Part shown: piece after piece, positions 4,105 to 27,391 of the stretch | How positions within the stretch are numbered: position 1 is the stretch's first letter | How the letters are laid out: every line of letters begins with the position of its first letter | Source: a virus | Reading direction: 5' to 3' (one strand) | DNA: 33,848 bases | Virus record (IMG/VR): IMGVR_UViG_3300025096_002359 | Span: 1 to 33,848 of that record | Notes under the pieces: generated by a model | What the model was told of the DNA's origin: nothing | What the model saw: the letters and a program-made list of their open reading frames with translations, nothing else | Databases searched by the model: none | Made by a program: the position numbers and the translations under genes

Positions 4105-5090
4105 GCTGTGCTCCTTGGGAATGCTCGCAAGAACTGGCGCTTCATGAATCTCTCGTCGCTATTGCAGAAGCCCGACCAGCTCCCGAAGGCACTCTTGACC
4201 GCTTTACGAATCGCCGCATCAAGGGCTGGATCGTCCTCGGCATAGGTCCAGCTCGGCCGGTACTGCGACGCTGGCGGGTCCATCCGGTTGTGCCTCTTCA
4301 CCCTATTGAGCGCGATCCCCCAAGCCGCCTCAGCATCCATCTTGGGGCTGGCCGCTGATGTCCCGACTGGTGATCCAGTGTCCCGCCAGCACTTCGCCTG
4401 GTGGATCTTGTCATCGAGCTTGGTGGGTCGGTAGAGCGACCGCGCCGAGAGATAGCAATTCTGCGTCTGGCCTGGGTTGTCGCCTCGGAGTAGCGCAGCG
4501 TGATAGCCAGGCGCAGTGAATGCCCAGCGAGCCACGAGGATGAGGTCTTCGACGGTGTACTGCTTCAGCGCTTTGTCGATAGCCTGCCTGCACGCCTTGG
4601 TGAGCGCCTCGCCCTGGGGGGCTCCAGCGGGATGGGTCGCCTTTCGGGTCGACCAGAGGTCCCAAATACACTGAGTGATCTTCTTCCTTATACCTTCTTC
4701 CTTCTTCTCTTGTATACACGCGCGTGTGTCGACTTCCTGTCGACTTCCTGTCGACTTCCTGTCGGATTTCTCGGCATTGTGTAGTTTCGCTGTATCCGTT
4801 CCTGTCGACTTCCTGTCGACTTCCTGTCGACTTCCTGTCGGATCCAACTGTCTGAGGGCCCGGCCGGCTCTCCATGCCTTCCATCCCCACCGCTCGGCAC
4901 ACCAGGCGCGCGACAACCTGCGCACACCGTGGATCGTGGGCAAAGCGCTCGAAATGCCCATCTCCAACCGGCGGAACTCATTCGCCCAGTAGGCACAATC
5001 GAGCTCGACCCACTCCTCGAGCCAGGGCTGCGGCAAGGCCTCGACGATGGCAGGCCAGGCCTCACGCGGTGCTCGGAAGTAGCCGCTCAT
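4101..5090 (-). CDS. Replication initiator / helicase-loader-like protein containing the origin (329 aa)
   Basis: Residues 1-80 look like a winged-helix origin-binding domain (LPTIHGVRRLSRAWCAERWGW as helix-turn-helix). Residues 84-121 are low-complexity and contain two copies of an SRQEVD/DRKSTG sequence, because the DNA there is two iteron arrays. The rest is helical (LTKACRQAIDKALKQYTVEDLILVARWAF) and resembles DnaD-like or replisome-organiser C-terminal domains. The lambda-O-like design of initiator gene, internal iterons and adjacent helicase gene supports origin recognition and DnaB loading. I chose ATG 5090 because it overlaps the small upstream gene by ATGA. ATG 5147 would add 19 residues. 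Confidence 0.8.
   Translation of the reverse strand: MSGYFRAPREAWPAIVEALPQPWLEEWVELDCAYWANEFRRLEMGISSALPTIHGVRRLSRAWCAERWGWKAWRAGRALRQLDPTGSRQEVDRKSTGTDTAKLHNAEKSDRKSTGSRQEVDTRACIQEKKEEGIRKKITQCIWDLWSTRKATHPAGAPQGEALTKACRQAIDKALKQYTVEDLILVARWAFTAPGYHAALLRGDNPGQTQNCYLSARSLYRPTKLDDKIHQAKCWRDTGSPVGTSAASPKMDAEAAWGIALNRVKRHNRMDPPASQYRPSWTYAEDDPALDAAIRKAVKSAFGSWSGFCNSDERFMKRQFLRAFPRSTA
4672..4720. other. Asymmetric purine/pyrimidine, AT-richer tract beside the iterons (candidate unwinding element)
   Basis: The plus strand is a run of CTTCTTCC-type pyrimidines with a TATA and a TGTATACA palindrome. It is far poorer in G and C than its surroundings. On the coding strand it follows the second iteron array directly. 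In lambda-type origins the AT-rich, purine-biased segment next to the iterons is where the duplex opens for DnaB loading. It is still protein-coding (QEKKEEGIRKKI). Confidence 0.6.
4728..4843. repeat. Two iteron arrays (11-bp direct repeats) forming a candidate replication origin
   Basis: The unit GTCGACTTCCT is repeated three times without spacing at 4728-4760, followed by GTCGGAT (4761-4767). An identical array sits at 4804-4836 followed by GTCGGAT (4837-4843). The period of 11 is close to one helical turn, so all units face the same side of the DNA. Each unit contains the GTCGAC dyad. The period is not a multiple of three, although the array lies in coding sequence, so the DNA pattern rather than the peptide seems to be what is conserved. 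Confidence 0.85.
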
Positions 5091-5615: not shown

Positions 5616-5887
5616 CGATCGTTGTCTCCTTCGGCCTCATCACTGTCCCCCCCCTGTCTACCCTCGTGGACCCAACCGCCGACATTACCCTCGTACGCGC
5701 CGCCGACGAAAACTCTGCACTCCTCCGAGCCAATCGCGCCGCAGGTCGGGCACGAGTTGTCGGTCCAGTCGATGTCGGCGTCGTCGCCGCGGACGAAGTG
5801 GCCATCCGAGGCTGCGGCGAGAGTACCGCCAACATGCACGCCACGCACATCGATGGGGCGGAGGTACAGTCTAGTCGTTTCAGCCAT
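5612..5887 (-). CDS. Hypothetical protein with a CPTC zinc knuckle (91 aa)
   Basis: This small acidic protein has strand-like segments (TRLYLRPIDVRGVHVGGTL) and a single CPTCG knuckle at about residues 47-51. A Gly/Asp/Glu-rich tail is encoded partly by a run of eight Gs. I chose ATG 5887 (MAETTRLYL), which overlaps the upstream stop by eight bases inside a GGGGGCGACGATGGCTGA junction. No family is recognised. It belongs to the array of small coupled genes between the nuclease and the initiator. Confidence 0.65.
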   Translation of the reverse strand: MAETTRLYLRPIDVRGVHVGGTLAAASDGHFVRGDDADIDWTDNSCPTCGAIGSEECRVFVGGAYEGNVGGWVHEGRQGGDSDEAEGDNDR

Positions 5888-6155
5888 CGTCGCCCCCAAT
5901 CTCGTCGGCCAGCTGCATCAGCTCCGCAGAAAATGGTGGTCGGTCCGAGAACATTCCGGCCAGTGCGCGGATTGCTGCGGCGGCTCGCCGGCTAAAGTCC
6001 CCACGCTGCCCGTCCCGACCGATATACACGAACTCGGCCTCATTGTCTGGCGGCCACCTGACTAGCCGGCCGACATACCCCGTAGGGTGGCAGACTCGAG
6101 TGCCCTCGCGGAAGTGGTTCCCGGCGGCATCGAAGTACGTGTGGTCCTTACTCAT
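5880..6155 (-). CDS. Hypothetical protein, duplicated family member A (91 aa)
   Basis: The N-terminal third (MSKDHTYFDAAGNHFREGTR...GYVGRLVRW) reads like a small beta-rich domain. The rest, from WPPDNEAEFVYIGRDGQRGD to the C-terminus, is identical to the gene at 6606-6875 because of a 180-bp duplication. The start is ATG 6155 with an AAAGGAG sequence upstream. The pair shares its C-terminal helical domain (RRAAAAIRALAGMFSDRPPF) but has unrelated N-termini, so the duplicated part behaves like a swappable module. Function is unknown. Confidence 0.75.
   Translation of the reverse strand: MSKDHTYFDAAGNHFREGTRVCHPTGYVGRLVRWPPDNEAEFVYIGRDGQRGDFSRRAAAAIRALAGMFSDRPPFSAELMQLADEIGGDDG
5883..6062. repeat. 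180-bp direct repeat, copy 1 (copy 2 at 6612-6791)
   Basis: Positions 5883-6062 and 6612-6791 match at 179 of 180 bases. The single difference is at 5895/6624. The offset is 729 bp, and the same reading frame (about 60 codons) is used in both copies. Recombination between the copies would delete the 729-bp unit carrying two small genes and fuse the two host genes. Confidence 0.95.
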
Positions 6156-6405: not shown

Positions 6406-6616
6406 CGTCGCCTCGACCCGCTGGGCGGTGACGCGCCCTCACAACCTCCAGCACGTCGGCATCCGGATAGTCGCTCCGGAGGTCCTTCATCGAGCAGTAA
6501 ACGAACAAGAGCCCGACGGCGGGATCGCACTCGATCTTGACCTCGTGACCTAAAACTGGATGCGTGCACCTCGGGCGAATCACCCTCAGAGGTACATAGT
6601 ATGTGTCACTCGCCAT
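6392..6616 (-). CDS. Hypothetical protein, paralogue of 7549-7878 (74 aa)
   Basis: The segment VKIECDPAVGLLFVY plus SM..LR.DYPDA is shared with the 109-aa protein at 7549-7878. A 45-bp stretch is identical at the DNA level (6497-6541 and 7741-7785). Both also begin with a TYYVP motif. The ATG at 6616 overlaps the preceding stop within GGAGGCGACGATGGCGAGTGA. The protein is soluble and mixed alpha/beta. Function is unknown. Confidence 0.7.
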   Translation of the reverse strand: MASDTYYVPLRVIRPRCTHPVLGHEVKIECDPAVGLLFVYCSMKDLRSDYPDADVLEVVRARHRPAGRGDDGTD

Positions 6617-6875
6617 CGTCGCCTCCAATCTCGTCGGCCAGCTGCATCAGCTCCGCAGAAAATGGTGGTCGGTCCGAGAACATTCCGGCCAGTGCGCGGA
6701 TTGCTGCGGCGGCTCGCCGGCTAAAGTCCCCACGCTGCCCGTCCCGACCGATATACACGAACTCGGCCTCATTGTCTGGCGGCCACCTGACGGTCACAGT
6801 ACATCGGAGCGTCGTTGTCGGTCTCGTCGAGTGCCTGCCTGGTCCGTGCAGAATTGCGTATTCGTCAGTCGACAT
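6606..6875 (-). CDS. Hypothetical protein, duplicated family member B (89 aa)
   Basis: The start is ATG 6875, preceded by a near-perfect AAAGGAGGCGACG ribosome-binding site. The first 29 residues (MSTDEYAILHGPGRHSTRPT) are unique. The remainder is identical to the C-terminal part of the protein at 5880-6155. It is therefore a module fusion produced by a recent duplication. The C-terminus (ELMQLADEIGGDDGE) is part of the recurring junction sequence. Confidence 0.75.
   Translation of the reverse strand: MSTDEYAILHGPGRHSTRPTTTLRCTVTVRWPPDNEAEFVYIGRDGQRGDFSRRAAAAIRALAGMFSDRPPFSAELMQLADEIGGDDGE
6612..6791. repeat. 180-bp direct repeat, copy 2 (copy 1 at 5883-6062)
   Basis: This is the partner of the copy at 5883-6062, with one mismatch. 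Its upstream edge on the coding strand falls exactly where the two proteins become identical (the VRWPPDNEAE segment). Its downstream edge falls in the shared gene-junction sequence, which suggests the junction served as one recombination end. Confidence 0.95.
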
Positions 6876-8578: not shown

Positions 8579-9386
8579 CTGGCACCTCATCCCCACTCTT
8601 GATCCAGTGCAGTACCTGCCGGAGGTCGGTTACGCCCTCCTCGCGACACCACTGGACCACTTCGACGCAGCGCCGACGCTCAGCGGTGACTCTACGGGCT
8701 GGAAGAGGATGGAGATGTGTGCGCATCTGGGCGCGCAGCTCATCCCGCTCTATTCCGAGCTTGGCGAGCTTGTCGCGCAGGAGGCCCTCAGTGTGAATCG
8801 CCGGCTGACCGGCCTCCACGCTGAGAATAGCCAGCCGCGTCAGGACCTTAGAGACGAGCGACTGGGAGACGCCGACGCGGGCAGCAATCTCCACCTGGGT
8901 ATGCCTATCCCGCCGGAGCGACACGATCAGAGCATCCCTCTCGGCAGTAGTGGCCCACCCATCGGACGCCACGGCCTGCTCGGCCTCCAGATCGGCGACC
9001 TGGGCGCGCAGTGCATCCCGCTCGGCTTCGAGCTTGGCGACCTTGTCGCGCAGGCAGAGGACCTCGGTGAGCATATGGCTGAGGGCATCGGTGAGGGCCG
9101 TGTGCCTCTGGTCGCTGATGTGCCCGTCCTCCAGCGCTGCATCGATGATGCAGATCGCCTGGTAGACCTGCGCGGGCTTGGCTGGCCCATCGTTCTTGGC
9201 GCTGCACAGCGCCTCGAGCTCCGCTTTCTCCAGGTCCCCAAAGGGCTCGGCCGCGACGCCGCCATCGTTCTTGGCGCTGCACAGCGCCTTCAGCTCCTCG
9301 ACCTCGTCGCGCAGCTCGTCCACCCTCGCCACCACCTCTGACATCAAGCCGATCACGGCCTGGATGCAGTCGTCCAGCCTACTCAT
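8568..9386 (-). CDS. Coiled-coil protein with helix-turn-helix (272 aa)
   Basis: Residues 15-70 and 105-140 are heptad-rich coiled coil. Residues 165-190 (TQVEIAARVGVSQSLVSKVLT) are a clear helix-turn-helix of the resolvase/MarR-like type. Two internal duplications are visible. ALCSAKNDG occurs at 44-52 and 69-77, from a 28-bp DNA repeat 75 bp apart, and a [CL]LRDK[VL]AKL segment recurs at about 111 and 202. The ATG at 9386 has GGGGGTG upstream. It is probably an operon regulator or DNA-organising protein, second gene of the leftward operon. Confidence 0.75.
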   Translation of the reverse strand: MSRLDDCIQAVIGLMSEVVARVDELRDEVEELKALCSAKNDGGVAAEPFGDLEKAELEALCSAKNDGPAKPAQVYQAICIIDAALEDGHISDQRHTALTDALSHMLTEVLCLRDKVAKLEAERDALRAQVADLEAEQAVASDGWATTAERDALIVSLRRDRHTQVEIAARVGVSQSLVSKVLTRLAILSVEAGQPAIHTEGLLRDKLAKLGIERDELRAQMRTHLHPLPARRVTAERRRCVEVVQWCREEGVTDLRQVLHWIKSGDEVPDGE

Positions 9387-13068: not shown

Positions 13069-13445
13069 ATCTATGCACCCGATGCAGCGCCGATGCCATC
13101 GCCAAGCTCGGCCACCACGGTCCAGAGGGGCTGGGCGATCACCAGGTCGAGTGGGTGTGCGAGTGGCACCGAGACCGCATGGCGGAGTGGCACCGGTGCT
13201 ACCACGCTGGCGGGTCTGTCACTGACGCCATCCTTCAGGTGCTCGCCGGTCGAGAGCTGACATCTCGACAGGTCTGCGATGATCTCGCCGATCGCGGGAG
13301 GGTGGTCACCATCGGCACCGTATCCGCTCGGCTGGCCCGGATGTGGGTGCAAGAGCGGGTGGACCGTCAGCCACTGGTGCAGCCGAGACGCTCGGTGTGG
13401 CTCTACCGGGGAGTCAAAGCAGACGAAAGTGACGTATGCTCCTAG
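13065..13445 (+). CDS. Zinc-motif winged-helix protein (126 aa)
   Basis: The N-terminus (MNLCTRCSADAIAKLG...VCEWHRDRM) holds a C-x2-C...C-x2-H zinc knuckle. Residues 60-120 (ELTSRQVCDDLADRGRVVTI...VSARLARMWVQERV...SVWLYRG) form a winged helix with a clear HTH and wing. It is probably a transcriptional regulator of this operon. GGAGG lies just upstream of ATG 13065, which overlaps the previous stop. The last codons (DVCS) fall in a 15-bp sequence repeated exactly 550 bp downstream. Confidence 0.75.
   Translation: MNLCTRCSADAIAKLGHHGPEGLGDHQVEWVCEWHRDRMAEWHRCYHAGGSVTDAILQVLAGRELTSRQVCDDLADRGRVVTIGTVSARLARMWVQERVDRQPLVQPRRSVWLYRGVKADESDVCS
13431..13445. repeat. 15-bp direct repeat, copy 1 (copy 2 at 13981-13995)
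   Basis: GACGTATGCTCCTAG occurs at 13431-13445 and 13981-13995, each time ending a gene with the residues DVCS. The 550-bp segment between them holds the second ABA-like paralogue and the terminase-derived minigene. The repeats look like the scar of a recombination event that placed that segment here. Confidence 0.85.
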
Positions 13446-13804
13446 CGAGGCGAGCGGTCGCCTCACCGGATTGGCGGTGGATGCCGGGGATGCTGGCGCT
13501 TCATTTCCCGGGCATGGCGCGGCGAGTGGCGCGGATCGACGGCCACGTCGCGGCCCTGCTGTACTGCGGCGATGCAGTGCCCGACCTCACCGACGCTGCC
13601 ACCCTGGGGTGCCTGCTCGCGCTGGTACGGGAGGCGTGGGGCGAGCCGACCCTCCACGTCTGGTACAGCTCCCAACTTGGGCTGTGGGTCGTATCAGCCG
13701 ACGGGCAGGAGATCGGCGTACAGGGGGTGACCGAAGCTGAAGCCCTCGTAGCTGCCCTGGAGGAAGTCGGCAGGAAGTCGATAGCTGCCCTGGAGGCACC
13801 ATGA
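13436..13804 (+). CDS. ABA-sandwich-like hypothetical protein, paralogue B (122 aa)
   Basis: It shares TLGCLLALVREAWGEPTLHVWY and GVTEAEALVAALEEV with the 175-aa protein at 12541-13068. The N-terminus (SPDWRWMPGMLALHF) resembles the opening strand of phage ABA-sandwich domains. ATG 13436 lies inside the 15-bp repeat and overlaps the upstream gene by ten bases without a strong Shine-Dalgarno. A near-tandem AGCTGCCCTGGAGG duplication near the end supplies the ribosome-binding site of the next gene. Confidence 0.7.
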   Translation: MLLARRAVASPDWRWMPGMLALHFPGMARRVARIDGHVAALLYCGDAVPDLTDAATLGCLLALVREAWGEPTLHVWYSSQLGLWVVSADGQEIGVQGVTEAEALVAALEEVGRKSIAALEAP

Positions 13805-13995
13805 GTGATCTAGCAAGACGCGCGAACCTCTGGGTGATGGATGAGCCGCCGTCACACTACACGGAGAATGTCGCCCGCATCATCGACCGGCCCGGCCAAC
13901 TCGTCATCGCCGCAACGGTCAATCGCCGCGTCGAGTGGCTTCGTAAGATGGTCGAAGGAGATACCAGACCTTCTGAAAAGGACGTATGCTCCTAG
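13801..13995 (+). CDS. Minigene carrying a fragment of the phage's own large terminase (64 aa)
   Basis: Residues 12-57 (VMDEPPSHYTENVARIID...GQLVIAAT...VEWLRKMVEGDT) are a close copy of residues 135-173 or so of the large terminase at 30404-31783. That part spans its Walker B (VMDEPP) and motif C (VIAAT). At the DNA level 13834-13967 aligns to 31351-31203 with long identical blocks. The four length differences remove 2, 1, 1 and 1 codons, so the frame is always kept. ATG 13801 has GGAGGCACC upstream and overlaps the previous stop. There is no Walker A, so it cannot be an ATPase alone. It may interfere with or regulate packaging, or be a captured fragment. Confidence 0.75.
   Translation: MSDLARRANLWVMDEPPSHYTENVARIIDRPGQLVIAATVNRRVEWLRKMVEGDTRPSEKDVCS
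13981..13995. repeat. 15-bp direct repeat, copy 2
   Basis: The same GACGTATGCTCCTAG sequence as at 13431-13445. Directly after it the DNA reads TGGCTCTATAAGGGGATGG, resembling the TGGCTCTACCGGGGAGTC near the end of the winged-helix gene. A remnant of that gene's C-terminus (WLYKG in another frame) may therefore lie here. Confidence 0.8.
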
Positions 13996-14024: not shown

Positions 14025-14510
14025 ATGGCACTTTCTCGGCGAGAACTCCGAGTCATCGAGCTATTCGCCGGTGCCGGCGGGGGAATCCTCGGACACCACC
14101 TGCTCGGCCACCGTACCGTTTGCGCTGTCGAGGCTGCTGCCTACCCTCGGCGGGTCTTGCTCGCCCGACAACGAGACGGGATGCTACCAAGATTCCCGAT
14201 CTGGGATGACGTCTGCACATTCGACGGGCGACCATGGCGAGGGGGGGCAGATGTCGTATCTGGTGGCTACCCGTGCCAGCCGCACTCAACAGCGAGTAGA
14301 GGTAGGAGGACGGCAGTTGACCTTTGGCCCGAAATGCTGCGGATCGTTCGAGAGGTTGGGCCCCAGTATGTCTTCGCTGAAAATGTCAGCAGGGCCACGA
14401 TCGTCAATGCAGCTGGCCAACTCCGAAGCCTGGGATATCCCCGTGTATCGGTTGCCCAAAGTTCCAGCGGTGGCTGCGGCTGCATGGCGCTTGCTTGCAA
14501 GTGCTCATGA
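14025..14510 (+). CDS. C5-cytosine DNA methyltransferase, C-terminally truncated (161 aa)
   Basis: Motif I (ELFAGAGGG, residues 12-20) binds AdoMet. GGYPCQPHS (80-88) is motif IV with catalytic Cys84, and FAENV (117-121) is motif VI. After LGYPRVSVAQSS the protein ends within a palindrome. Motif VIII, the target-recognition domain and motifs IX-X of a normal enzyme of more than 300 residues are missing. It is therefore either a broken gene or a two-subunit arrangement whose other half is absent here. ATG 14025 was chosen. It is the last rightward gene, at the convergent boundary with the late operon. Confidence 0.85.
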   Translation: MALSRRELRVIELFAGAGGGILGHHLLGHRTVCAVEAAAYPRRVLLARQRDGMLPRFPIWDDVCTFDGRPWRGGADVVSGGYPCQPHSTASRGRRTAVDLWPEMLRIVREVGPQYVFAENVSRATIVNAAGQLRSLGYPRVSVAQSSSGGCGCMALACKCS

Positions 14511-14532
14511 GCACTTGCAAGCAAGCGCCATG
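14483..14532. repeat. Perfect 50-bp palindrome at the convergent transcription boundary
   Basis: The 50 bases starting CATGGCGCTTGCTTGC are their own exact reverse complement: two 25-base arms without a loop. The left arm encodes the final residues of the truncated methyltransferase. No T-run follows on either strand, so it is not a classical intrinsic terminator. It could stop convergent transcripts through RNA hairpins on both sides, be an extrusion or resolution site, or be a fold-back artefact of assembly. Confidence 0.95.
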
Positions 14533-14543: not shown

Positions 14544-14607
14544 AGACCGCCCAGTCGTACCCGACGATCACCCTCGCGCGCTCGGGAGCGCTTCGACTGG
14601 GCGGTCT
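14544..14607. terminator. Long hairpin between convergent operons (14-bp stem)
   Basis: AGACCGCCCAGTCG (14544-14557) pairs perfectly with 14594-14607. Inside the 36-base loop CCCGA (14560-14564) can pair with TCGGG (14582-14586). The last late gene ends within the loop (stop at 14568). The position at the end of the leftward late operon suggests a transcript end or a stabilising 3' structure. The lack of a following T-run makes intrinsic termination uncertain. Confidence 0.5.
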
Positions 14608-14753
14608 CCCACTGGCGGCTCTTCCGGCGGGTCGTCTTCCGGCGGGTCGTCTTCCGGCGGTAGAGGGTCCGGAGGGTCCGGAGGGTCCGGAGGGTCAGGG
14701 AGGTCTGGCGGTACAGGCGGGTCTGGTGGCGTCGGCCGGTCGGGCCTGCTCAC
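14568..14753 (-). CDS. Proline/aspartate-rich repeat protein, last late gene (61 aa, GTG start)
   Basis: The sequence is almost entirely PPD/DPP and EDDPP repeats (DPPDPPDPP, then EDDPPEDDPPEEPP), encoded by 9-bp and 15-bp tandem DNA repeats at about 14621-14700. The GTG start overlaps the stop of the upstream membrane-protein gene as GTGA, which supports translation. The opposite strand would encode a Gly/Ser-rich frame that I take to be its shadow. It could be an extended periplasm-spanning or linker peptide in lysis, but the composition alone does not show this. Confidence 0.5.
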   Translation of the reverse strand: MSRPDRPTPPDPPVPPDLPDPPDPPDPPDPLPPEDDPPEDDPPEEPPVGDRPVEALPSARG

Positions 14754-15013
14754 TGGCCTACCCCGTAGTCCTCAAGAGCTCGAGCGCACGTCGTAGGTTG
14801 CCCAGAGCACACGATAGCTCCGTCTGGGTAGCGGGTGACCTTGCTCGCCTGGGTTGTCTCGACCTCGCCGACTGGAGTGGGCAGCCGCACCGCCACGCCG
14901 ACCTGTCCAGCGACGATGACCAACAGAGCGACGATGGTGATCGAGTCGACCCAGGCGCGTCGCTTGCGGTCAGCCATCAGGTGCTCAAGTAGGCTGGCGG
15001 TCACATCGTCCAC
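14750..15013 (-). CDS. Single-pass membrane protein near the lysis genes (87 aa, GTG start)
   Basis: A charged N-terminus (LLEHLMADRKRRAW) is followed by one strong membrane segment (VDSITIVALLVIVAGQVGVAV). The roughly 40-residue outer part has two cysteines (VCSGQPTTCARAL) that may form a disulfide. Size and topology suit a holin, antiholin or spanin component. The start is uncertain: GTG 15013 has GAAGAGG five bases upstream, while GTG 15019 would add two residues. It lies two genes downstream of the lipoprotein and three downstream of the amidase. Confidence 0.65.
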   Translation of the reverse strand: MDDVTASLLEHLMADRKRRAWVDSITIVALLVIVAGQVGVAVRLPTPVGEVETTQASKVTRYPDGAIVCSGQPTTCARALEDYGVGQ

Positions 15014-15096
15014 GGGCACCTCTTCGGTACCCGCATTCTAGCGCGTTTTCGCTGCTGTGGTCGGCCAGATGGTAGCGGGGCTGGCGTTCGGTCCTG

Positions 15097-16462: not shown

Positions 16463-18348
16463 CTCTGCCTCAATTGCTGGTCGACGCGCAGTCGCAGTGT
16501 GATTGCGTGATCTCCGATCCACTCGATAGCCTCGACTCGCGCCACCTCGGATGTCAGGCCGATCTCGGCATCGGTCACGGTGACGATATTGCCTGGCTCC
16601 AGCCAGCCCCACACAGTACGAGTCTGGTAGCTGATCTCCAGATGCGGCATGGCGCGATCGTCCACGATATCCGCAGCGACAACCTCGGCTGTAGCGCGAT
16701 CGTGGATCCAGTCAGTCGCGACAACGTGTGACTGGCGACGATACCGAGCGTGAGACAGTCGAGCCTGCAATGTGACACTTTGGCCGCCGAATCCTGGGTT
16801 GATGGCGTTGTCGGCGATGGCAAGGCGGTCAGGGTTGCCGTGGGCGATGACGCTTCCGCGGTGCTCGTCACTCGTCGGGTCGAGGAGGTACTGCACAGTT
16901 ACATCGTTGATGGGGCGGCTGAGTAGCGCCAGCAGGTCAGCTCGTTCGATGCCCTCGTCTGCGGCGTCGAGGTGGGCCACTGCATCTCGGCTACTCGGCG
17001 CTGGGTCGAGGTAGACAGGGTACAGTCCGCTCGGGCCTTGGCGCAGTGCGATCGGAAGGATGGGCACCAGCTCCCGCGTGATGAAGTCCACCACGGTTTG
17101 CTCGGTGTCGACGGTGTAGCCAGCCAGTTTGTAGCCGTTCAGCCGGTTGATGACTGCGACTGCGCGCCCTCGATCAACGCCAAGGCTGGTCTCGTCGAGG
17201 AGGCGCAGGAGGATGTCGCCGGCGCCGGTGATAGCGTTGTCGCCCAGGTCGTCGAGCTCGCCACCATCGGTCAGCCACCCGACCCAGTAGTCGCCGTCGA
17301 GGTCGAAGTCAGTGGCACCGTCGGTTGGGTCAGCCACCCAAGTCGACGCGCTCGAGGTGTTGCCGATGCGAGCCGCCGATACCACAGTCCCGAGGCCGTC
17401 GGTGAGCTGGACAACGGCAGTTGCCTGCCATGTCGACGTCGGATCCGCCATATTCCGGATGTAGGCTGTCGTCGCCTTGATCGGCCTGTCTGCGACGATG
17501 ACGTAGTAGCGCACCCAATCTCTGAAAGTAAGCGTAGAACCTACCTCGTTTGCATAGTAGCGCGGGCTTGCATCGCTCGGCAGGTACGCAACCGCAGGCG
17601 CAGGCGATCCTGGAATGAAGATACTTCCGAGCCCGACGATGAGGCTCGAAGATGTCGTCGAGCCGACAGCTGCCACTGCCGCGTTGCTCGTTGTGAGCAC
17701 CGAGTCGACCGCAGCCTCGTACAGCCGAGCGCCAGGGACGCCGAATACTCGTGGGTATTGCCCAGCCTGCCAGCCCGTCGTATCGATGGGGTAGGTGGCC
17801 GTACCAGTCGCGGTGACGTCCGAGCCTCCCACCAGCTTCTGGGACTGCCAATCGACGGTGATGTGCCCATCACCGAGGATAGGCCAGGTCGTGCCATTCG
17901 TCTGTCGGTCAGGGTCGCACACGAGCGCGGTGTCTTCGACTGCATCGAGCACAATGGAGAATGCGAGCGCCTCGCCGATGGCCCCAAAAACAGGCTCGTC
18001 GAGTTGACCGGAGACGAGAAGCCGACGCTGACCAAGGGTCAGTCCCGCGCGCCACTGCGACAGGGTCGCGGTCGCGGTCGTGATGTCGTGGCCATCGCCG
18101 AGTATGACCTGCGCCCAGTTGGTTGACGGATCGATGATGCGAATGCTGACCGAGGGCTCGCGTCGGTGTAGTTCCTCGGCGAACCGAGGCGAGTCGAGGC
18201 CTGCGGTGTAGTGGGTCGCCACCCCGTCGGCATCGTCGATGTCCAGGGCCTCGGTGGCGAATCGATACACCCGCCCACCCAGCTCGAGATCGAGCAGGTG
18301 ATACACCCGATAGCCGACGAGGTCGGAGCGTGACCATCGGTCGATCAA
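16459..18348 (-). CDS. Tail-tip / baseplate hub-like protein (629 aa)
   Basis: The large size, strand-rich composition and position after the tape measure and large tail protein fit a siphophage tail-hub or tip protein. Segments such as IIDPSTNWAQVILGDGHDITTATATLSQWRAG early on and RPINDVTVQYLLDP, LEISYQTRTVWGWLEPGNIVTV late resemble hub proteins that end in a gp27-like or phage_tail_3 barrel. No catalytic motif is visible. It overlaps the upstream gene by four bases and the amidase downstream. Confidence 0.7.
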   Translation of the reverse strand: MIDRWSRSDLVGYRVYHLLDLELGGRVYRFATEALDIDDADGVATHYTAGLDSPRFAEELHRREPSVSIRIIDPSTNWAQVILGDGHDITTATATLSQWRAGLTLGQRRLLVSGQLDEPVFGAIGEALAFSIVLDAVEDTALVCDPDRQTNGTTWPILGDGHITVDWQSQKLVGGSDVTATGTATYPIDTTGWQAGQYPRVFGVPGARLYEAAVDSVLTTSNAAVAAVGSTTSSSLIVGLGSIFIPGSPAPAVAYLPSDASPRYYANEVGSTLTFRDWVRYYVIVADRPIKATTAYIRNMADPTSTWQATAVVQLTDGLGTVVSAARIGNTSSASTWVADPTDGATDFDLDGDYWVGWLTDGGELDDLGDNAITGAGDILLRLLDETSLGVDRGRAVAVINRLNGYKLAGYTVDTEQTVVDFITRELVPILPIALRQGPSGLYPVYLDPAPSSRDAVAHLDAADEGIERADLLALLSRPINDVTVQYLLDPTSDEHRGSVIAHGNPDRLAIADNAINPGFGGQSVTLQARLSHARYRRQSHVVATDWIHDRATAEVVAADIVDDRAMPHLEISYQTRTVWGWLEPGNIVTVTDAEIGLTSEVARVEAIEWIGDHAITLRLRVDQQLRQR

Positions 18349-21300
18349 ATCTCCTCCTCGATGCTGAGCGACATCACCCGTTGCAGCTCGTCAGACGCCT
18401 CGTCACCGAGGACAGCAGTGCGGCGCACCGACGACGACACGATGCGGCCGTACAGCGACTCACCGAGGGCTGGCAGGCTCGTGCCGACCTCGGACACCAC
18501 AAGCCGAGGGCAGTATACCACCGGCCGGGCTGGCCCATCGAGCTGGCGGAAGAGCCCGTCTATCATCAGCGGTGCAGCCTGGGTGATGGCTGCGGGGTCA
18601 TCCGATGCGTGGAACTTCCCGTAGTCCGCACCGACTGCGAATAGCTGCGAGGTATCGACACCTTCGGCCCACGAGAAGCTGACCGAGCGGCGAGTCGGGC
18701 CAGCCACCCGAGCCGAGCGGCCACCCGTCGCCGAGGTGGCGAGGTCCGTGTTGTGCATCGTCTCGAGCTCGCGACCTCGGCTGTACTGCGTACCGAAGAC
18801 GTAGATGGGGCCAGGTATGGCGACACCGGCGCGGATTTTTCCGTCTGCCGTGGTCTGGGCTGGAATGGTGAGGCGGAGCTTGCTGATGCGGACAGAGTGC
18901 CGCCAGGGCACAAGAACCGACGGCATGGCTATCTGGCCAGCGGTGCCCGATGTAGCGCCCGCGGCGCCGGTCTCGAGGTAGATCAGCGGCCGACGAGTCG
19001 CGCCAGCCTTCCATATGCCGTCGGTGTTGCCCCTGATGCGCCAGACGTTGCCTGTCGTGGTGTCTCGGAAGCTGCCCCCGGCGAGGTCACTGGGGGCAAG
19101 GTACCGAGCGACATCATCAGAGCCGCTGGTGGTCACTTCAATGGTATTGCCGTACCGGGTCCACTCCAGGGCAGTGAGCACACCCACAGGGTCGACGGTG
19201 GCGAGCGTCACCCAGGCCGAGCCGTTGTAGCCGGCGAGGGTGGCCGTGAACCAGTTGATGCCGCCCAGGTAGATGCCGCAGACGGGCGAGCCGAGACTGG
19301 ATGGTGTGCCCTCGATGGTCCAGGCGATGACCTGATCTGTGTCGTCGTTTAGGCTGCGCCACTGCTCCCGCGGGCTCGGACTATTGGCTGGGTCGACCAG
19401 TTCGACGCCGTAGTCGTGTCGGGCCACCACAGACCACGTGTCACCTGACCCGCCACCGATAGCAGGACCGTCGATCGCTGCGATGCGTACACCGTCATGT
19501 ACGTAGACCGGCGCGCGCGAAAAAGGCCTGGCGAAGAGATCACTCGGCGACGAGAATGTCGGCATGCCACCCATCAAGGCCTGGGTCTGATGTGCCTCTG
19601 CCCACACCGACGCTGATGAGATGGTCCCGTCGGTCTCAAGATGACCCCACTTCGTGAAGTGGCTCCCAGCGCCACTGCCACTGGTGAGGCTGGTCGAGGC
19701 TGGCCCGGCCGACCACTCACGGACTGATGATGTCGACGTGCGGTACCAGCACGCGAAGTCGTCGCCGTAGATGGCCACGAGGAATTCGATTCCGTCGGTC
19801 GTATCGACTGCGACCGTGCCCAGCACACTTGAGGCGTTGGCGTCGATCACGCGGAAGCCATTCTCGCTGATGCAAACGCTCGCAGTGTAGTAGTCAGCCG
19901 AATTGTCACCGACTTGGACCGAGATCCCGATCTTTGGGGTGCTGACGTACCCAGTTCGTCCGTCCACGCTGATCAGCCGGAATCGCGCGACGAGACCAAT
20001 AGCCAGGCTGGTGGCGATGCCTGTCTTGCTCCACGTCTGGGCCTGTGCTGAGGTCGTCGCAATGGAATAGTAGCCCGCTGTCGTTGTCGTCAGGGTCGGC
20101 GCCCCAGTCGCAGTAGATGCGTATCCAGCCTCCCCCGGCCCCTCGAACGGCGTCCAGGTTTGATCCCAGCCGTGCTGGTAGATGTCGGCGGTCGTTGCCG
20201 CAGCCATTGGCATAGTGATCGTCGTGTACCCGCCCAAGTATGCCAAGCCGATCGCGTACTGATGGACGTTGTCATCGCGCAAGACATCGAAGGCCAGCAG
20301 AGACCGGCCGTGCGCTTCGAGCGCCGCGAAGTTGTCGAACTTGCCTCGAGCGCTGGACGTGCCAGCAGTGCCCAGCACGAGCGGGTAGTCGACGTGCACC
20401 AACCAAGACAGGCCTGCGTCAGTCGATCGGCTGATGCTGATCGTTCCTTCGTTCGTGTCGTCAACTCTGGCGCTGTACAGGGTGCCGTCATCGCTCTGCC
20501 AGAGGCAGTGCGGCTGTGAGGCTGACGACGAGGCGAGCGTCACCGCCGAGGCAGTCGAGAGCAGCGAGTATGCCGACCCCAGGCGCTTGACCCTGATGTG
20601 GTGCTGGGTGCTGGTGTTCAGCTCGGCGTACTGCACCAAGAAGCCACCCGAGGCGAGGGCCACCACGTCGGGGAAGATGAGCCCGGCCGTGGTGGCAACC
20701 TGCCGAAACGAGGTGCCGAGGTCGCTCGATGCGAGGTGATACAGCGTCGAGTCGTCGGAGCCATCGCGGACGTCAGCGAGCATCAGGATCTGGCCGCGGG
20801 AGTAGGCTGCCCGCATCCGCTTCGGCGTCAAGCTCGACGTCGAGATCGCTGACCGGAGGCAGAATCTGGAGCCAACAGCCCACGTGGCACCGTCGTTGTC
20901 GGAGTACCACATGCGGACATTGGCCGAAGAGATCGTCGAAGCGACGATCCATGCGAACAGGATGACCCGCCCAGTCGGGAGGACCACCAGACACGGGTAC
21001 GGGTTGTCGTTCGCGCTCGCGAAGCCAGCAGCGCCAACGGTGACGACCGCTCGTGCCACCCATACGCCATCCACCAGCGCCCGGATCCGGATCTCGTCGA
21101 CGCTCCCGGTGTCGTGACGGCTGGCCTGGAGTACCGTCTCGTCGGCGAGCTTCGCCAAGCAGGGCTGGTCGTTCTTCGAGCTCGAGCTCGAGCTATACGG
21201 ATTCCACTCGCAGCTCGACGCCGAGCCTGGCGTATCCCAGCCGACGTACGCGGTCTTCGCGGCGCCTGCATCGAGCCATGCAAACCCACCGCCTCGCTCC

Positions 21301-21533
21301 TGGCGACCTGGGTACCCGCCACGAATCGCCATGATGGTGAGATCTCCACCGCTCGATTGCGAGCCAGAGGCCTCGAGCACCATGTCGCTACGGATAATCG
21401 AATCGTCTGCGGGTACCCCAGGTCGCGGGGAGGCCTGCGTATACGACGAGTCAGCCGCGCTGATGTTTGCATGCTTGATGCGCTCGTCGGGCACCAAGAG
21501 GCCCTGGTAGACTGTGCGGCTGGCTTCACTCAT
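18345..21533 (-). CDS. Large tail protein with sialidase-like Asp-box propeller (1062 aa)
   Basis: This is the largest gene in the window. Three Asp-box motifs (S-x-D-x-G-x-[ST]-[WF]) appear near residues 211-218 (SDNDGATW), 269-277 (SSDLGTSF) and 370-377 (STDAGLSW). They lie at propeller-like spacing, as in neuraminidases and BNR-repeat proteins. A serine homopolymer (SSSSSS) lies near residue 114. The C-terminal half is a string of beta-sandwich-like regions. It is probably the receptor-binding or host-surface-degrading tail protein. Whether it keeps glycosidase activity cannot be judged, because the catalytic Arg triad and Tyr/Glu pair are not identifiable by eye. Confidence 0.75.
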   Translation of the reverse strand: MSEASRTVYQGLLVPDERIKHANISAADSSYTQASPRPGVPADDSIIRSDMVLEASGSQSSGGDLTIMAIRGGYPGRQERGGGFAWLDAGAAKTAYVGWDTPGSASSCEWNPYSSSSSSKNDQPCLAKLADETVLQASRHDTGSVDEIRIRALVDGVWVARAVVTVGAAGFASANDNPYPCLVVLPTGRVILFAWIVASTISSANVRMWYSDNDGATWAVGSRFCLRSAISTSSLTPKRMRAAYSRGQILMLADVRDGSDDSTLYHLASSDLGTSFRQVATTAGLIFPDVVALASGGFLVQYAELNTSTQHHIRVKRLGSAYSLLSTASAVTLASSSASQPHCLWQSDDGTLYSARVDDTNEGTISISRSTDAGLSWLVHVDYPLVLGTAGTSSARGKFDNFAALEAHGRSLLAFDVLRDDNVHQYAIGLAYLGGYTTITMPMAAATTADIYQHGWDQTWTPFEGPGEAGYASTATGAPTLTTTTAGYYSIATTSAQAQTWSKTGIATSLAIGLVARFRLISVDGRTGYVSTPKIGISVQVGDNSADYYTASVCISENGFRVIDANASSVLGTVAVDTTDGIEFLVAIYGDDFACWYRTSTSSVREWSAGPASTSLTSGSGAGSHFTKWGHLETDGTISSASVWAEAHQTQALMGGMPTFSSPSDLFARPFSRAPVYVHDGVRIAAIDGPAIGGGSGDTWSVVARHDYGVELVDPANSPSPREQWRSLNDDTDQVIAWTIEGTPSSLGSPVCGIYLGGINWFTATLAGYNGSAWVTLATVDPVGVLTALEWTRYGNTIEVTTSGSDDVARYLAPSDLAGGSFRDTTTGNVWRIRGNTDGIWKAGATRRPLIYLETGAAGATSGTAGQIAMPSVLVPWRHSVRISKLRLTIPAQTTADGKIRAGVAIPGPIYVFGTQYSRGRELETMHNTDLATSATGGRSARVAGPTRRSVSFSWAEGVDTSQLFAVGADYGKFHASDDPAAITQAAPLMIDGLFRQLDGPARPVVYCPRLVVSEVGTSLPALGESLYGRIVSSSVRRTAVLGDEASDELQRVMSLSIEEEI

Positions 21534-23218
21534 CGGCGCCTCTTACGCTTGCGTCGGCTGCCCTGTATCGCGCTCGCCAGCGGCGAATCGGAGCGGCGTA
21601 GGTTGTCCGCGACGAAGCGGTCGAAGATGCGGTGCCGGTAGACCATCGCCACCTCCATCCCAGCAGGCGCGGATGTAGCTCGATTCATCGCGCCGATCTG
21701 CTCTTCACCCGCGGCACGCACTGCTGCGGTCGAGAGCACTGCCTCACCAGGCTGGGCGCTGATGAGTCGATGATCAGGCGGTATCACACCACCGATCGGA
21801 AACGAGGGAGGCTGGACAGACCCGACTGCTATGGCGTTGGCGGCACCAGTGACGCCAGCCTGAATCACTGCTGGGATATTGGCTGGCCAGGGCAGCGTCG
21901 CTGCGTTCTGAAGTGCAACGACAGCAGCGATAGCCACCTCTGCGATACCCAGCGCCTTGCGGGTTTGGAACAATGCGCGAGCCGCCTTCCGGCCCTCCGC
22001 TGTCTCAGTGTCGAGGTTTTGCTGCTGGGCAGCCAGCACCGCATCAGCCAAGCTGACCGCAGAGTACGCAGCCTCTTCTCGGTATCGCCTCGCCAGACTG
22101 ATGGCGTCTTCGTAGGCCGCGGCTTCAGCTGCCGCCGCACGCTCAACTGCCTCCATCTCCGTCAGCCTGGCTCGCTCGTTTGCGGTAGCGAGATCGTCAT
22201 TGCCACCCTTGCCAGCCTTGACCTCACCCTCGATCCGGTCGAGGTTGGCGCGCATCGCGGCATCGCGCTCTGCGTTGAGCTGCTCTAGCAGCTCCTGCTC
22301 TGCCTTGAGTGCGGCGTCGCGCGCCCTCTGCTCTTCGCGGGCTCGACGTTCCCTGCGCCGTCGATCCTCGGCATCCAGGCGCTCGCGCTCGCGGTCGCCG
22401 AGAAGCATGAAATCCCGCTCAGCACTGTACGTCTCGTTGGCCTGATCGATGTACTCGGCAAGGACATCTGAAGCGTCACTGATCGCTTCTGCCTGAGCCT
22501 TCAGGGCCTCAACGTCCGCCTCGTAGGCGTCGGTAAGGTATCCGACGGCTTCAGCAGCGCGACTCCAAGCTCCTACGACGATCAAGCCCAGCGGAGTAGT
22601 GTTCTCTGCTAGCCACTTGGTGTTGTCGGCGAGGTTCCTGAGGGTGAGGCCCCAGCCGCTCGCAGTCGATGCGGCGTCTTCGAACGCGAGACTCAGCGCC
22701 AGGATGCTGTCGACCGTCTCGGTCACTGCTGGGCTCATCCCCGCAGCGAAGAGGACTTGGAGGCGCTGACCTGCGAAAACGAGATCGTCAAGAGCCTGGT
22801 TCGCGTCGCTGATTGCGTCGGCCTGGTCGGCGAAGATCTCGGGATGGTCCCACTCATCGAGTAGCTCGGCGGCTGCTCTGGTGGCTTCGATGGTGGCCTC
22901 GGTGAATTTCGCCACCGCGAACGCGCCAGCCACCAGCGCAGCGACGCCAGCAGCAGCCGCGAAGCCAGCCGGCCCGAGCTTCCCGAAGGCATCGGCGAGG
23001 TCCTCGAGCGGCCCGATGTCGCCACCCACAGATCGCAGAGCCGCCCCGAAGCCATTCAGCTGCTGCTCTGCATCATCGAAGTCGAGAGCCGCTTGCTTTG
23101 TGGACCGAGCTGAGTGCTTGACCTCGGAGCGGTAGTCACGGAGCTCTGCCTGAGCAGCCTTCAGGCGCTGCGTCATGGTGCGCAGCTCTGCATTGAGCTG
23201 GTCGAGGGTCTTTCCCAT
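21530..23218 (-). CDS. Tail tape measure protein (562 aa)
   Basis: It follows the frameshifted chaperones, as tape measures do. The composition is helical and Ala-rich throughout. It has an early membrane-like segment (GPAGFAAAAGVAALVAGAFAV) and a long coiled coil with RRRRERRAREEQRARD. Its end is typical of the family: IAEVAIAAVVALQNAATLPW...PPSFPIGGVIPP. The C-terminus is a basic GSRRKRKRRR. By the usual 0.15 nm per residue rule the tail would be about 85 nm. It also assists DNA entry. ATG 23218 overlaps the chaperone fusion stop. Confidence 0.88.
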   Translation of the reverse strand: MGKTLDQLNAELRTMTQRLKAAQAELRDYRSEVKHSARSTKQAALDFDDAEQQLNGFGAALRSVGGDIGPLEDLADAFGKLGPAGFAAAAGVAALVAGAFAVAKFTEATIEATRAAAELLDEWDHPEIFADQADAISDANQALDDLVFAGQRLQVLFAAGMSPAVTETVDSILALSLAFEDAASTASGWGLTLRNLADNTKWLAENTTPLGLIVVGAWSRAAEAVGYLTDAYEADVEALKAQAEAISDASDVLAEYIDQANETYSAERDFMLLGDRERERLDAEDRRRRERRAREEQRARDAALKAEQELLEQLNAERDAAMRANLDRIEGEVKAGKGGNDDLATANERARLTEMEAVERAAAAEAAAYEDAISLARRYREEAAYSAVSLADAVLAAQQQNLDTETAEGRKAARALFQTRKALGIAEVAIAAVVALQNAATLPWPANIPAVIQAGVTGAANAIAVGSVQPPSFPIGGVIPPDHRLISAQPGEAVLSTAAVRAAGEEQIGAMNRATSAPAGMEVAMVYRHRIFDRFVADNLRRSDSPLASAIQGSRRKRKRRR

Positions 23219-23999
23219 CAGGCCTCCGGATCCATCGCCCAGGCGATAGCAGCAGGGTCAGAGCCTGTACGGTTCGCCCATCGCGCTGCTGTGGCTTGTG
23301 GGCTTGGCTTGGCTTGGCGCCTCCCTGGCGAAGCACCTCGCGACACTGACAGCGCTCTCAGCATGTCGTGGTAGGTCGCTGGCGTCGATAGTGCTGGCCT
23401 GTCCTGACTCATCTGCACCATCCAATGCGCCACGAGGTCGACTTGCGTGGCTGGGGTCAGGTCTCGGATGCACCGTTGACTGTGGGCCCCGAGTCGGAGG
23501 TTGAGGTCGACTTCTCGGAGTTCTGCGAAGCCTTCGTCTGTCCGAAAAAATCAGCACGCTCCAATGCTGCCGCCCCGGCTGCATTGCGCTCCGACCAGTG
23601 CCCGACGAGCGCCGCGCCCATCGTGACCACCTGCTCGATGGTGTACCCGCCGTCTTCTAGTTCGACGAGGACATCGCGCCCGATGGTGATGGTGTCGCGT
23701 CGGGTGCTAGTGTCGGTGTCGAGGTCGAGGTGAGGGTGCCGCCAGGCCACGCCGATGAGGTAGCACAGTGCGCCGAGTACCTCGGGGCCTGTCTGCTCCA
23801 ACAGCGCCAGCACCATCGAAGGCACCGAGCGGTCGAGGCTGCCCAGCATCGCCAGGCGCCGCGAGCCGATGCCACGCAAGGCAGACAGCCCCGCGATGGC
23901 GTCGGGTATCCGCATAGGGTGAGGCTGCCCGTCGACGTCTAGGGTGACGTAGTTAGACAACTCGGGCACGATGCGCTCGGTGGCTCTGCGCTTCATCAA
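23218..23999 (-). CDS. Tail assembly chaperone fusion made by -1 frameshifting (G-T type, 260 aa)
   Basis: Ribosomes that slip by -1 at 23544-23550 continue past the zero-frame stop at 23457. They read RTDEGFAELREVDLNLRLG... and on through HWMVQMSQD...AAIAWAMDPEA to the stop at 23218. There are 152 codons before the slip and 108 residues after. The downstream frame has no good start of its own at its beginning, which supports the fusion. As in lambda gpGT, the minor long form probably recruits tail tube protein to the tape measure. Confidence 0.8.
23457..23999 (-). CDS. Tail assembly chaperone, zero-frame product (G type, 180 aa)
   Basis: It lies between the tail tube and tape measure genes, the position of lambda gpG. 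The protein has a helical centre (SVPSMVLALLEQTGPEVLGALCYLIGVAW) and ends in a Ser/Thr-rich tail after the slippery codons (ADFFGQTKASQNSEKSTSTS). It is the abundant form of the chaperone that coats the tape measure during tail assembly. ATG 23999 overlaps the tail-tube stop as ATGA. Confidence 0.82.
   Translation of the reverse strand: MMKRRATERIVPELSNYVTLDVDGQPHPMRIPDAIAGLSALRGIGSRRLAMLGSLDRSVPSMVLALLEQTGPEVLGALCYLIGVAWRHPHLDLDTDTSTRRDTITIGRDVLVELEDGGYTIEQVVTMGAALVGHWSERNAAGAAALERADFFGQTKASQNSEKSTSTSDSGPTVNGASET
23544..23550 (-). promoter_or_regulatory. Programmed -1 ribosomal frameshift site (TTTTTTC)
   Basis: On the coding strand the codons GAT TTT TTC contain the heptamer T-TTT-TTC in the exact X-XXY-YYZ phase. 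The -1 frame after it is open for 108 codons, up to the tape measure start. A GC-rich sequence follows that could form a stimulatory structure. Confidence 0.85.
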
Positions 24000-24484
24000 G
24001 TCACCGTCGGGTAGAGGTCGTACGCGGTTCCGGTGATGCTGATGGTGCTCGGGTCTCCCTCTGAGAAGCTACCGGTGACCACGCAGTGATTCAGCGTCAG
24101 CGTATGGTCAGTGCCACCGAGGGCCGCACCGGCGATAGACCACTGGAGCGTCAGCGCGAAGACGTCGGCGGTGGCGCCTTGCGTCGATACCCAGTCGGCG
24201 GCCTTCCCGTTCCGCCCGCTGATGAGGTCCTCAAGCGTGGCCTCTGCGGCGTCTGACAGATCACGAAGGTAGGCCGTGAAGCTGAATGTGCAGGCCTGAT
24301 CATCGCCCGCCCGCAGACTCGGGGTTGCACCGAACCGGCCGCGGTCCAGGGTGCTTACGATCGTTGTGCCAGGTATGCCGATGTTCAGGTCACCCTGCTC
24401 GAAGGCCACAACTAGGGTGTTTGCCCCTCCGTTATCCTTCAGGACAATCTGGCCGTCCCGCTTGGTCTTGATGATGGTTTCCAT
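23996..24484 (-). CDS. Major tail tube protein (162 aa)
   Basis: Size, position directly ahead of the chaperones and beta-rich sequence identify it as the tail tube (major tail) protein. Characteristic segments are IVLKDNGGANTLVVAFEQGD, FGATPSLRAGDDQACTFSFTAYL, and the terminal SISITGTAYDLYP. It polymerises as hexameric rings around the tape measure. The start is ATG 24484. A nine-base gap separates it from the upstream gene. Confidence 0.85.
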   Translation of the reverse strand: METIIKTKRDGQIVLKDNGGANTLVVAFEQGDLNIGIPGTTIVSTLDRGRFGATPSLRAGDDQACTFSFTAYLRDLSDAAEATLEDLISGRNGKAADWVSTQGATADVFALTLQWSIAGAALGGTDHTLTLNHCVVTGSFSEGDPSTISITGTAYDLYPTVT

Positions 24485-24493
24485 GTGCCTCTC

Positions 24494-24757
24494 TCACAGT
24501 GATTCGGTTGCCCGCTCAACGAGCGCGACAGTGTCAGCCTCGAAGGCCGGGATGACGTCGGCGATGGAGTCTTCGACAACTCGAGCGGCTTGGGTGGCCA
24601 TCACGAAGGGCATGTACGGCGCTGACGACGAGAACCCCTCTGAGGTCAGCGCCCACGACCGCGAGAGCTTGCCAGTGTCGACGGGTGACGCTCGCCTGAG
24701 CGCGGGTAGCGCCACATCAGCGAGACGGTCGACGACATCTGGCAGGGCGGCAGTCAT
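24494..24757 (-). CDS. Head-tail joining / tail completion protein, HK97 gp10-like (87 aa)
   Basis: The PVDTGKLSRSW motif (residues 25-35) with a preceding helix (VVDRLADVALPALRRA) is the hallmark of the HK97 gp10 / minor tail completion family. A segment (APYMPFVMA) corresponds to the family's later part. It is somewhat shorter than usual. It probably acts in joining head and tail between the connectors and the tail tube. Confidence 0.75.
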   Translation of the reverse strand: MTAALPDVVDRLADVALPALRRASPVDTGKLSRSWALTSEGFSSSAPYMPFVMATQAARVVEDSIADVIPAFEADTVALVERATESL

Positions 24758-25065
24758 TCGACTGCCAGGTACGCCGTCGGGGTACCCGTCGACGCTTGAA
24801 GATAGATGGACTTGCCGCCAAGCGCGCGAGATCCGCCGGGCGGATCCGCAGGCGCCCCCTCGTAGCTCTGCGAGGCGGCCAGAAAGTACCCGACGCCTGA
24901 CCCGAGCGCGACTCCATCAGTGCCGGCGTAGGCCATGAGCATCGATCCACTTCCGGAGATGGATACTTTTCTCGCGTTAGGCGGCAAAACGACCGCTGTC
25001 GCCGTCGTCGCGATCGCAAAATTCCGCGTAAAGGGCGGCCGGATGGCCGAGAAGTCCTGGGCCAT
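24754..25065 (-). CDS. Small virion structural protein (103 aa)
   Basis: A beta-rich, glycine/serine-rich protein (RKVSISGSGSMLMAYAGTDGVALGSGVGYFLAA...) lies between two head-tail joining candidates. The tail reads KSIYLQASTGTPTAYLAVE. It has the look of small decoration or beta-sandwich virion proteins. I cannot assign it to a named family. It overlaps both neighbours by one to four bases. Confidence 0.6.
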   Translation of the reverse strand: MAQDFSAIRPPFTRNFAIATTATAVVLPPNARKVSISGSGSMLMAYAGTDGVALGSGVGYFLAASQSYEGAPADPPGGSRALGGKSIYLQASTGTPTAYLAVE

Positions 25066-25499
25066 TATCCGGCTCCTACCTGCTGATCGCGGGTGATCGC
25101 GATGGTGATGGTGATGGTCTGCCAGCCTCCGCCTGACTTGGCGGGGTCAGGCTGCACATCCACGAATCGTGGATGGTATGCCACCAGCTCTGGACCAGTG
25201 AGCCGGTTGATGATGGCTTCTTCCTTGCTCCCCGCAGCGATGTCCGAATCACCCTGGTCTTTCGGTGCGAGACGCCACTTCAGATCGACTGCGATGGCAT
25301 CTTCGACTCGAGCTCTGGTCTTGTCGCGGTAGAGGTCAAGATTCGCGGTGGCTGCACGCCGTACAGAGACGCTGTTGTGCGACCTGGTCGCCGACGTGAT
25401 GCCCTGGCGACTGTCGATCAGAGTCAGCCCAAGCGATGGAGAGGCAACAAGCGCCGCCTCAACTGCGCTGATGACCTGAGCGATTGTCTTCGCGGCCAT
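25065..25499 (-). CDS. Tail terminator / minor tail protein candidate (144 aa)
   Basis: The alpha/beta arrangement fits phage tail terminators or neck proteins (gpU/gp9-like). An N-terminal helix (QVISAVEAALVASPSLGLTLI) leads to paired strands (SVSVRRAATANLDLYRDKTRARVEDAIAVDLKWRL) and a C-terminal strand (QTITITIAITRDQQ). Its place three genes ahead of the tail tube agrees. The assignment is by position and pattern only. Confidence 0.6.
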   Translation of the reverse strand: MAAKTIAQVISAVEAALVASPSLGLTLIDSRQGITSATRSHNSVSVRRAATANLDLYRDKTRARVEDAIAVDLKWRLAPKDQGDSDIAAGSKEEAIINRLTGPELVAYHPRFVDVQPDPAKSGGGWQTITITIAITRDQQVGAG

Positions 25500-26218
25500 C
25501 AGTAGCCCCAGGGCTGTGAGAGGAAGGTCACAGGCTCGGCCGCGGCTCGATCGCCATCGTCCTCAGTGCCACCCTCGTCAGCGTCGTAGCGCAGCGGCAA
25601 CTCGTCGAACTCAGCCTTCGCAGCGTCACGGTATTCTGCTGACATCTGCGAATAGCGCGCGTCGCCCGTGGATAGCGCGAAGTCGGCAAAGATGATCTGC
25701 AATGTCAAGAGAAGATGATACTCGGCGAGGGCCCAAGAGTTCAGCACAAGCTCTGGGCGACGACCTGCCTTGATGAGACGTCGCTGCACCCTGGTCCAGG
25801 CTGCCTCGCGCTGTGTCTGGTAGCTCGACTGGTCCGAGTCACGGAGCGCGGCGAGGTCGCTATGTAGCCCGATGAGGTCGGTGTCGGTGATGCTCGGATA
25901 CAGCACATGCCGCACGAGGTAGGCGTCTCGGCGGAAGGTGTACACCGTGCCGCCGATGGTCAGCGACCACACCTCGAGCCACGAGTCGGAGAGGCCCTCG
26001 CCGGTGGTCGAGCCAGCCGCCAGGGTGTGACTCGTCGGAGATCCTGCCGAGGTCACAGCTACCCCATCGAGGATCAGCTTGGATCCGGCGTAGAGGGTCA
26101 GCGTGCCAGCCGAGGCAGTCTGCTGAGATCCAGCCGCGTCGTAGACGTCGGCGGTCAGGGTATTGGCCACCCCGCGCTCAATGCTGCGGGGCAAGGCATG
26201 GCGTAGGACCAGCGACAT
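25499..26218 (-). CDS. Head-tail connector / neck protein candidate (239 aa)
   Basis: The N-terminal 100 residues are an Ig-like beta domain (NTLTADVYDAAGSQQTASAGTLTLYAGSKLIL...). The C-terminal half is helical (LHSDLAALRDSDQSSYQTQREAAWTRVQRRLIKAG, LLLTLQIIFADFAL), which is similar in layout to gp6-like connector proteins. It sits between the capsid genes and the tail genes, where connectors and stoppers are normally encoded. It ends in a Trp-Gly-Tyr. Confidence 0.6.
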   Translation of the reverse strand: MSLVLRHALPRSIERGVANTLTADVYDAAGSQQTASAGTLTLYAGSKLILDGVAVTSAGSPTSHTLAAGSTTGEGLSDSWLEVWSLTIGGTVYTFRRDAYLVRHVLYPSITDTDLIGLHSDLAALRDSDQSSYQTQREAAWTRVQRRLIKAGRRPELVLNSWALAEYHLLLTLQIIFADFALSTGDARYSQMSAEYRDAAKAEFDELPLRYDADEGGTEDDGDRAAAEPVTFLSQPWGY

Positions 26219-26472
26219 CAGCTGCCCGTCATCGCAGTCCAGGTTGCCGCAGCTGTCTTGGCGTACAGCGTCGAGCCAGCTCCACCCAGTTGCCGCAGGT
26301 ATAGCGAGCCGATCGGGTTGCCATCGTCATCGTCAGGATCGCCTGACCCGGTGATGATGACTGGGTCAGAGGTCACTGCGGTCCGAGCCGAGGTGCGGAC
26401 CACAAACCCAACAGCCGCTATCGGCTTGCGGAAAACGCTGCTGAGTGACCCGAGTCGAGAGATGAGTGCCAT
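26218..26472 (-). CDS. Small virion-associated hypothetical protein (84 aa)
   Basis: A short helix (LSSVFRKPIAAVGFVV) leads to an Asp-rich turn (SGDPDDDDGNPIGSLYLRQLGG) and a strand segment ending TWTAMTG. This resembles small domains that appear in tail or collagen-like head proteins ('GSLYLR...TLYAKT..TWTA', a pattern common in fibre proteins). GTAGGAG lies before ATG 26472. Its role is unknown. It could be an attachment or decoration protein. Confidence 0.6.
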   Translation of the reverse strand: MALISRLGSLSSVFRKPIAAVGFVVRTSARTAVTSDPVIITGSGDPDDDDGNPIGSLYLRQLGGAGSTLYAKTAAATWTAMTGS

Positions 26473-26520
26473 AGGAGTCTCCTACAGGGCCAACGTCGGC
26501 CCCAGCACCGGCGATGTCAG

Positions 26521-27384: not shown

Positions 27385-27391
27385 GATGCTC

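Follow-up and report, generated by a model that had tools for sequence, protein, structure and literature searches.

A perfect 50-bp palindrome at or near the 3′ end of a cytosine-5 DNA methyltransferase gene, in an uncultivated phage, is probably the scar of one short-range replication template switch within that gene. The window analysed was one whole IMG/VR virus record from a virus of bacteria (IMGVR_UViG_3300025096_002359; 33,848 bases). The palindrome and the break in the gene are separate lesions, which corrects the initial annotation's reading of the two as one. The palindrome is thus a natural example of how one template switch may turn coding sequence into a perfect hairpin at a convergent gene junction, and such events offer a possible route to the birth of terminators or RNA hairpins. 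Most likely it belongs to an ordinary, known kind of mutation and does not point to a new system.

A spacerless palindrome with 25-nt arms

Positions 14483–14532 (unstranded) of the assembled contig are identical to their own reverse complement and form two 25-nt arms with no spacer, as the initial annotation had described. The palindrome has the structure CATG-X(19)-CATG-X′(19)-CATG, in which X (19 nt) is GCGCTTGCTTGCAAGTGCT and the three CATG copies start at 14483, 14506 and 14529, so that the outer tetramer is the same as the central one. From the base composition, 1.8e-10 such arms would be expected in the window, which bears out the earlier statement that they are extremely rare by chance, and the runner-up palindrome in the window (spacer ≤ 8 nt) has arms of only 9 nt. 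Across 163 fetched loci (1.24 Mb), the longest arms of any other spacerless palindrome were 20 nt, followed by 11 nt; the 20-nt case is a perfect palindrome at positions 2654–2693 of a Saprospiraceae MAG (L123). The palindrome is therefore rare, yet long perfect palindromes are occasionally present in natural sequence, and it is unusual but not unheard of. The additional claim that such arms are unstable in many hosts was overstated for arms of 25 bp, since strong instability is a matter of much longer palindromes.

The methyltransferase remnant and its internal deletion

The 5′ part of a cytosine-5 DNA methyltransferase gene, with motifs I, IV and VI intact, lies at 14025–14458 on the plus strand. 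This remnant matched positions 1–113 of the 324 positions of PF00145 (E 3e-14) as well as phrog_363 (E 4.9e-35), and it compares most closely with the orphan cytosine-5 DNA methyltransferases of phages. Its N-terminal part carries FAGAGGG, PCQ and ENV and is matched by many phage relatives, the nearest of which (L005 and L008) are about 68–70% identical to it over that part. In relatives, the C-terminus reads GNGQVPxVAAxAWRLL, and the gene stops after a further short tail; the conserved C-terminal tail VPAVAA-AWRLL, which is the tail of motif X, is present in 75 of them. The window also contains this tail (VPAVAAAAWRLLAS). It begins at ~14461 in another frame than the remnant, spans about 14459–14497 and reaches into the left arm of the palindrome. 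Furthermore, BLASTN of 14459–14495 against two relatives (L078 and L082) gave 92% DNA identity. In the window, VIELFAG and motif X are 135 codons apart, compared to 203 codons in L005 and L008, and none of the 75 relatives that carry the motif has fewer than 184; thus, about 200 nt have been lost. By this comparison with relatives, the lesion of the gene is an internal deletion that is out of frame and removes about 200 nt relative to L005 and L008; its junction is placed within 14452–14464 on the plus strand (near 14458/14459), and the palindrome starts about 24 nt further downstream. Motifs VIII and IX and the GNGQ half of motif X are missing. A functional C5 DNA methyltransferase has motifs I, IV, VI, VIII, IX and X in one frame, which the remnant does not, and it is presumably dead.

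The coding sequence of the motif-X tail continues past the break proposed in the initial annotation and into the left arm; hence, by alignment, the palindrome is located at or near the 3′ end of the methyltransferase gene and is not the gene break. The annotation had put the palindrome at the broken end of the gene and had proposed a comparison with relatives having a complete methyltransferase; in that comparison, C-terminal homology crossed the proposed break to at least 14495. Likewise, its statement that the gene loses motifs VIII–X holds for VIII, IX and the GNGQ half of X but not for the VPAVAA-AWRLL tail, which is still present.

One template switch as the probable source of the palindrome

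The left arm together with the central CATG (14483–14509, plus strand) is native methyltransferase C-terminal coding sequence (AWRLLASAH), as indicated by the identity to L078 and L082 and by the AWRLL-type tail that follows GNGQVP in relatives. No relative has palindrome arms longer than 7 nt at the gene end. With the left arm conserved as part of the gene and long arms lacking at this place in the relatives, the right arm can be read from the alignments as the newer, inverted copy. The palindrome is equivalent to ...GCTCATG|ATACAATC... plus a single insertion of 23 nt, and the switch points fall at CATG, as a four-point template switch predicts. Any position within the CATG overlap would serve as the insertion point; the inserted segment is here assigned to 14510–14532 (unstranded), a putative templated insertion consisting of an inverted left-arm copy that ends in CATG. 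Removing the 23 nt gives the predicted empty site ...GCAAGTGCTCATGATACAATC... (empty-site string CAAGTGCTCATGATACAATCACC). IMG/VR searches found no relative with an empty site, so the ancestral state is a predicted one. The C-terminal frame of the predicted empty site stays open for > 40 codons beyond AWRLLASAH, exceeding the tails of the relatives shown, and the ancestral gene end is therefore not fully recovered. The frame of the remnant stops at the TGA at 14508–14510 with or without the inserted 23 nt, so the insert changes nothing for the remnant. The palindrome, its right-edge junction and the right flank had no match in IMG/VR; the palindrome had none in phage and plasmid records, and the right flank had no distant DNA match in phages.

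We infer both the switch and its direction as follows. A growing strand ending in ...GCTCATG would have switched to the like-sense strand, priming at the self-complementary tetramer CATG, and would have copied 19 nt of C-terminal codons backwards as far as the next CATG (14483). It would then have returned via the same tetramer to the proper template and continued with ATACAATC, the net result being an inverted duplication of 23 nt and with it the perfect palindrome without a spacer. The gene would have been killed, before or since, by the separate out-of-frame loss of about 200 nt, so that the scar would carry no coding cost. The resulting strong hairpin, now between converging transcripts, may incidentally be a barrier to transcription or RNA processing.

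Several features argue for this mechanism. CATG occurs at both ends and at the centre of the palindrome, a microhomology that is supportive although not strictly required. CATG makes up 0.29% of the genome's tetramers, and a match between the outer and central tetramers would arise by chance in about 0.3% of cases, an argument that was spotted post hoc. In addition, the reverse-complement copy of the nearby sequence is perfect (25/25), and one copy, the conserved C-terminus in the left arm, is ancestral. That the arms still pair at every position, free of drift, suggests that a single event made them recently. Further rearrangements lie nearby, namely the internal deletion, a partial terminase gene copy in inverted orientation and short tandem arrays, and these were counted in favour of a template switch. 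Template switching is an established source of perfect inverted repeats and hairpins (PMC7954356, PMC8794818). As in the short-range mutations of the four-point model described there, the palindrome can be read as a one-event reverse-complement copy of adjacent sequence that gave a perfect inverted repeat or hairpin; unlike those cases, the arms here touch and leave no loop, the context is a phage rather than primate or rRNA sequence, and the empty sequence is a predicted one. Template switching also yields perfect palindromes in E. coli and, as cited there, in phage T4 (PMC7202029). The present palindrome shares with those quasipalindrome-associated mutations a perfect palindrome from a switch of the replicative polymerase, whereas a strong quasipalindrome is missing from its predicted empty site, where the best arms measure 5 nt, and the switch apparently went via a 4-nt microhomology.

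Other readings of the palindrome

The rightward genes give way to leftward ones around the palindrome, which lies at the one convergent early/late junction; gene directions confirmed the earlier statement that rightward early and leftward late transcription meet there. A 23-bp stem is predicted for the RNA of either strand (z −7.5 and −8.3), and a second stem-loop with perfect 14-bp arms and a 36-nt loop, found by inverted-repeat search and folds, adjoins the palindrome at the end of the leftward genes (14544–14607, unstranded). These features would suit a selected bidirectional transcription stop, or a hairpin processed by RNase III, where the rightward early operon meets the leftward late one; convergent genes are known to have overlapping bidirectional terminators, which form a constrained class (PMC5381666). 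The palindrome resembles these terminators in offering a hairpin common to converging transcripts, but a U-tract after the stem is absent on both strands (0 to 2 T in 8), and thus it is not a canonical intrinsic terminator. The bidirectional stop proposed in the initial annotation accordingly kept its position and its predicted hairpin but not the U-tract. Moreover, the arms contain methyltransferase coding sequence, their perfect identity suggests youth, and there are no relatives to display conservation or compensatory changes. A selected stop or processing hairpin is possible but unlikely, although the same mutation could have supplied a selected terminator, a point that was counted against the template-switch reading. 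As judged from the predicted folds, the palindrome may possibly be a barrier to converging transcription. Rfam gave no match in the window.

Template switching happens in vitro too, and only a single record spans the palindrome (two further contigs cover 22706–33848 and 16992–29769; L083 and L084, respectively). The palindrome might accordingly be an amplification or assembly artefact, in which the methyltransferase end folded back in vitro and was assembled into the contig. However, the inverted copy is merely 23 nt long and is followed by an exact return to unique sequence of the same phage, while a plain fold-back would prolong the inverted copy. The two sides of the palindrome have a tetranucleotide correlation of r 0.73, compared to ≤ 0.59 with any unrelated contig, a terminase excerpt to the left of the palindrome matches the terminase to its right, and L083 and L084 together reproduce 16992–33848 at 100% identity, ending short of the palindrome. 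We consider such an artefact quite unlikely. A chimeric contig joined at the palindrome was rejected on the tetranucleotide likeness and the shared terminase excerpt. Searches with proteins of both flanks found no sister contigs across the palindrome, and no literature turned up on the samples behind L083 and L084; searches with a 629-aa late protein found no host or prophage relative, and the terminase and this late protein had no phage relatives.

The initial annotation had also suggested a recombination scar that truncated the gene. A replication or recombination scar is indeed the best reading, but the truncation does not stand, since the deletion is a separate upstream junction and the TGA at 14508–14510 is unaffected by the insert. 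The palindrome and the deletion are 25 to 50 nt apart and could stem from one complex event; nevertheless, with gene homology crossing the proposed break and the deletion junction near 14458/14459, the palindrome is very unlikely to be the mark of a recombination that cut the methyltransferase short. In N15-like phages, the protelomerase target is a perfect mid-genome palindrome some 50 bp long. The present palindrome is alike in perfection, size and position, and the end base that L083 and the window share near the terminase genes is compatible with a genuine virion end on the right and, with it, a mid-genome position of the palindrome. In contrast to those targets, no protelomerase was detected here and one arm is native gene sequence: a six-frame search of this possibly incomplete record turned up neither a PF16684 protelomerase nor a PF00589 tyrosine integrase, no large unassigned ORF adjoins the palindrome, methyltransferase coding sequence makes up half of it, and the GC skew does not change there. 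A resolution, telomere or replication site, such as the protelomerase target of an N15-like linear plasmid-prophage, is thus highly improbable, and a resolution or telomere site for an undescribed phage-encoded enzyme, between the structural and replication modules, is more improbable still.

Neighbouring ORFs and repeats

The 64-aa ORF adjoining the methyltransferase remnant (13801–13995, plus strand) is an in-frame excerpt of the phage's own large terminase (31213–31351, minus strand), with the peptide VMDEPP..HYTENVARIID..GQLVIAAT..VEWLRKMVEG. Excerpt and gene share 84% DNA identity over 139 bp, and all four indels are multiples of three; from this pattern, the ORF is possibly a maintained mini-gene. 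A 15-bp repeat, GACGTATGCTCCTAG, occurs at 13432–13446 and 13981–13995, where it covers the end of one ORF and the start codon of the next, for two ORFs in succession. A repeat-rich region holds a 180-bp direct repeat (5883–6062 and 6612–6791; 99.4% identity), with more repeats at 4727–4843, 6459–6541/7703–7785 and 8727–9297. L083 and the window end at the identical base (33848), near the terminase genes and just upstream of a ParB/methyltransferase ORF. This shared end suggests a true genome end. The nearest leftward late ORF to the palindrome with a clear coding composition (14750–15019, minus strand) is short and unassigned; its end is overlapped by a 61-aa proline-rich ORF at 14568–14753. 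Just to the right of the palindrome, tandem arrays of 15-bp and 9-bp units (14620–14705) would encode Gly/Ser-rich sequence in one direction and Pro-rich sequence in the other.
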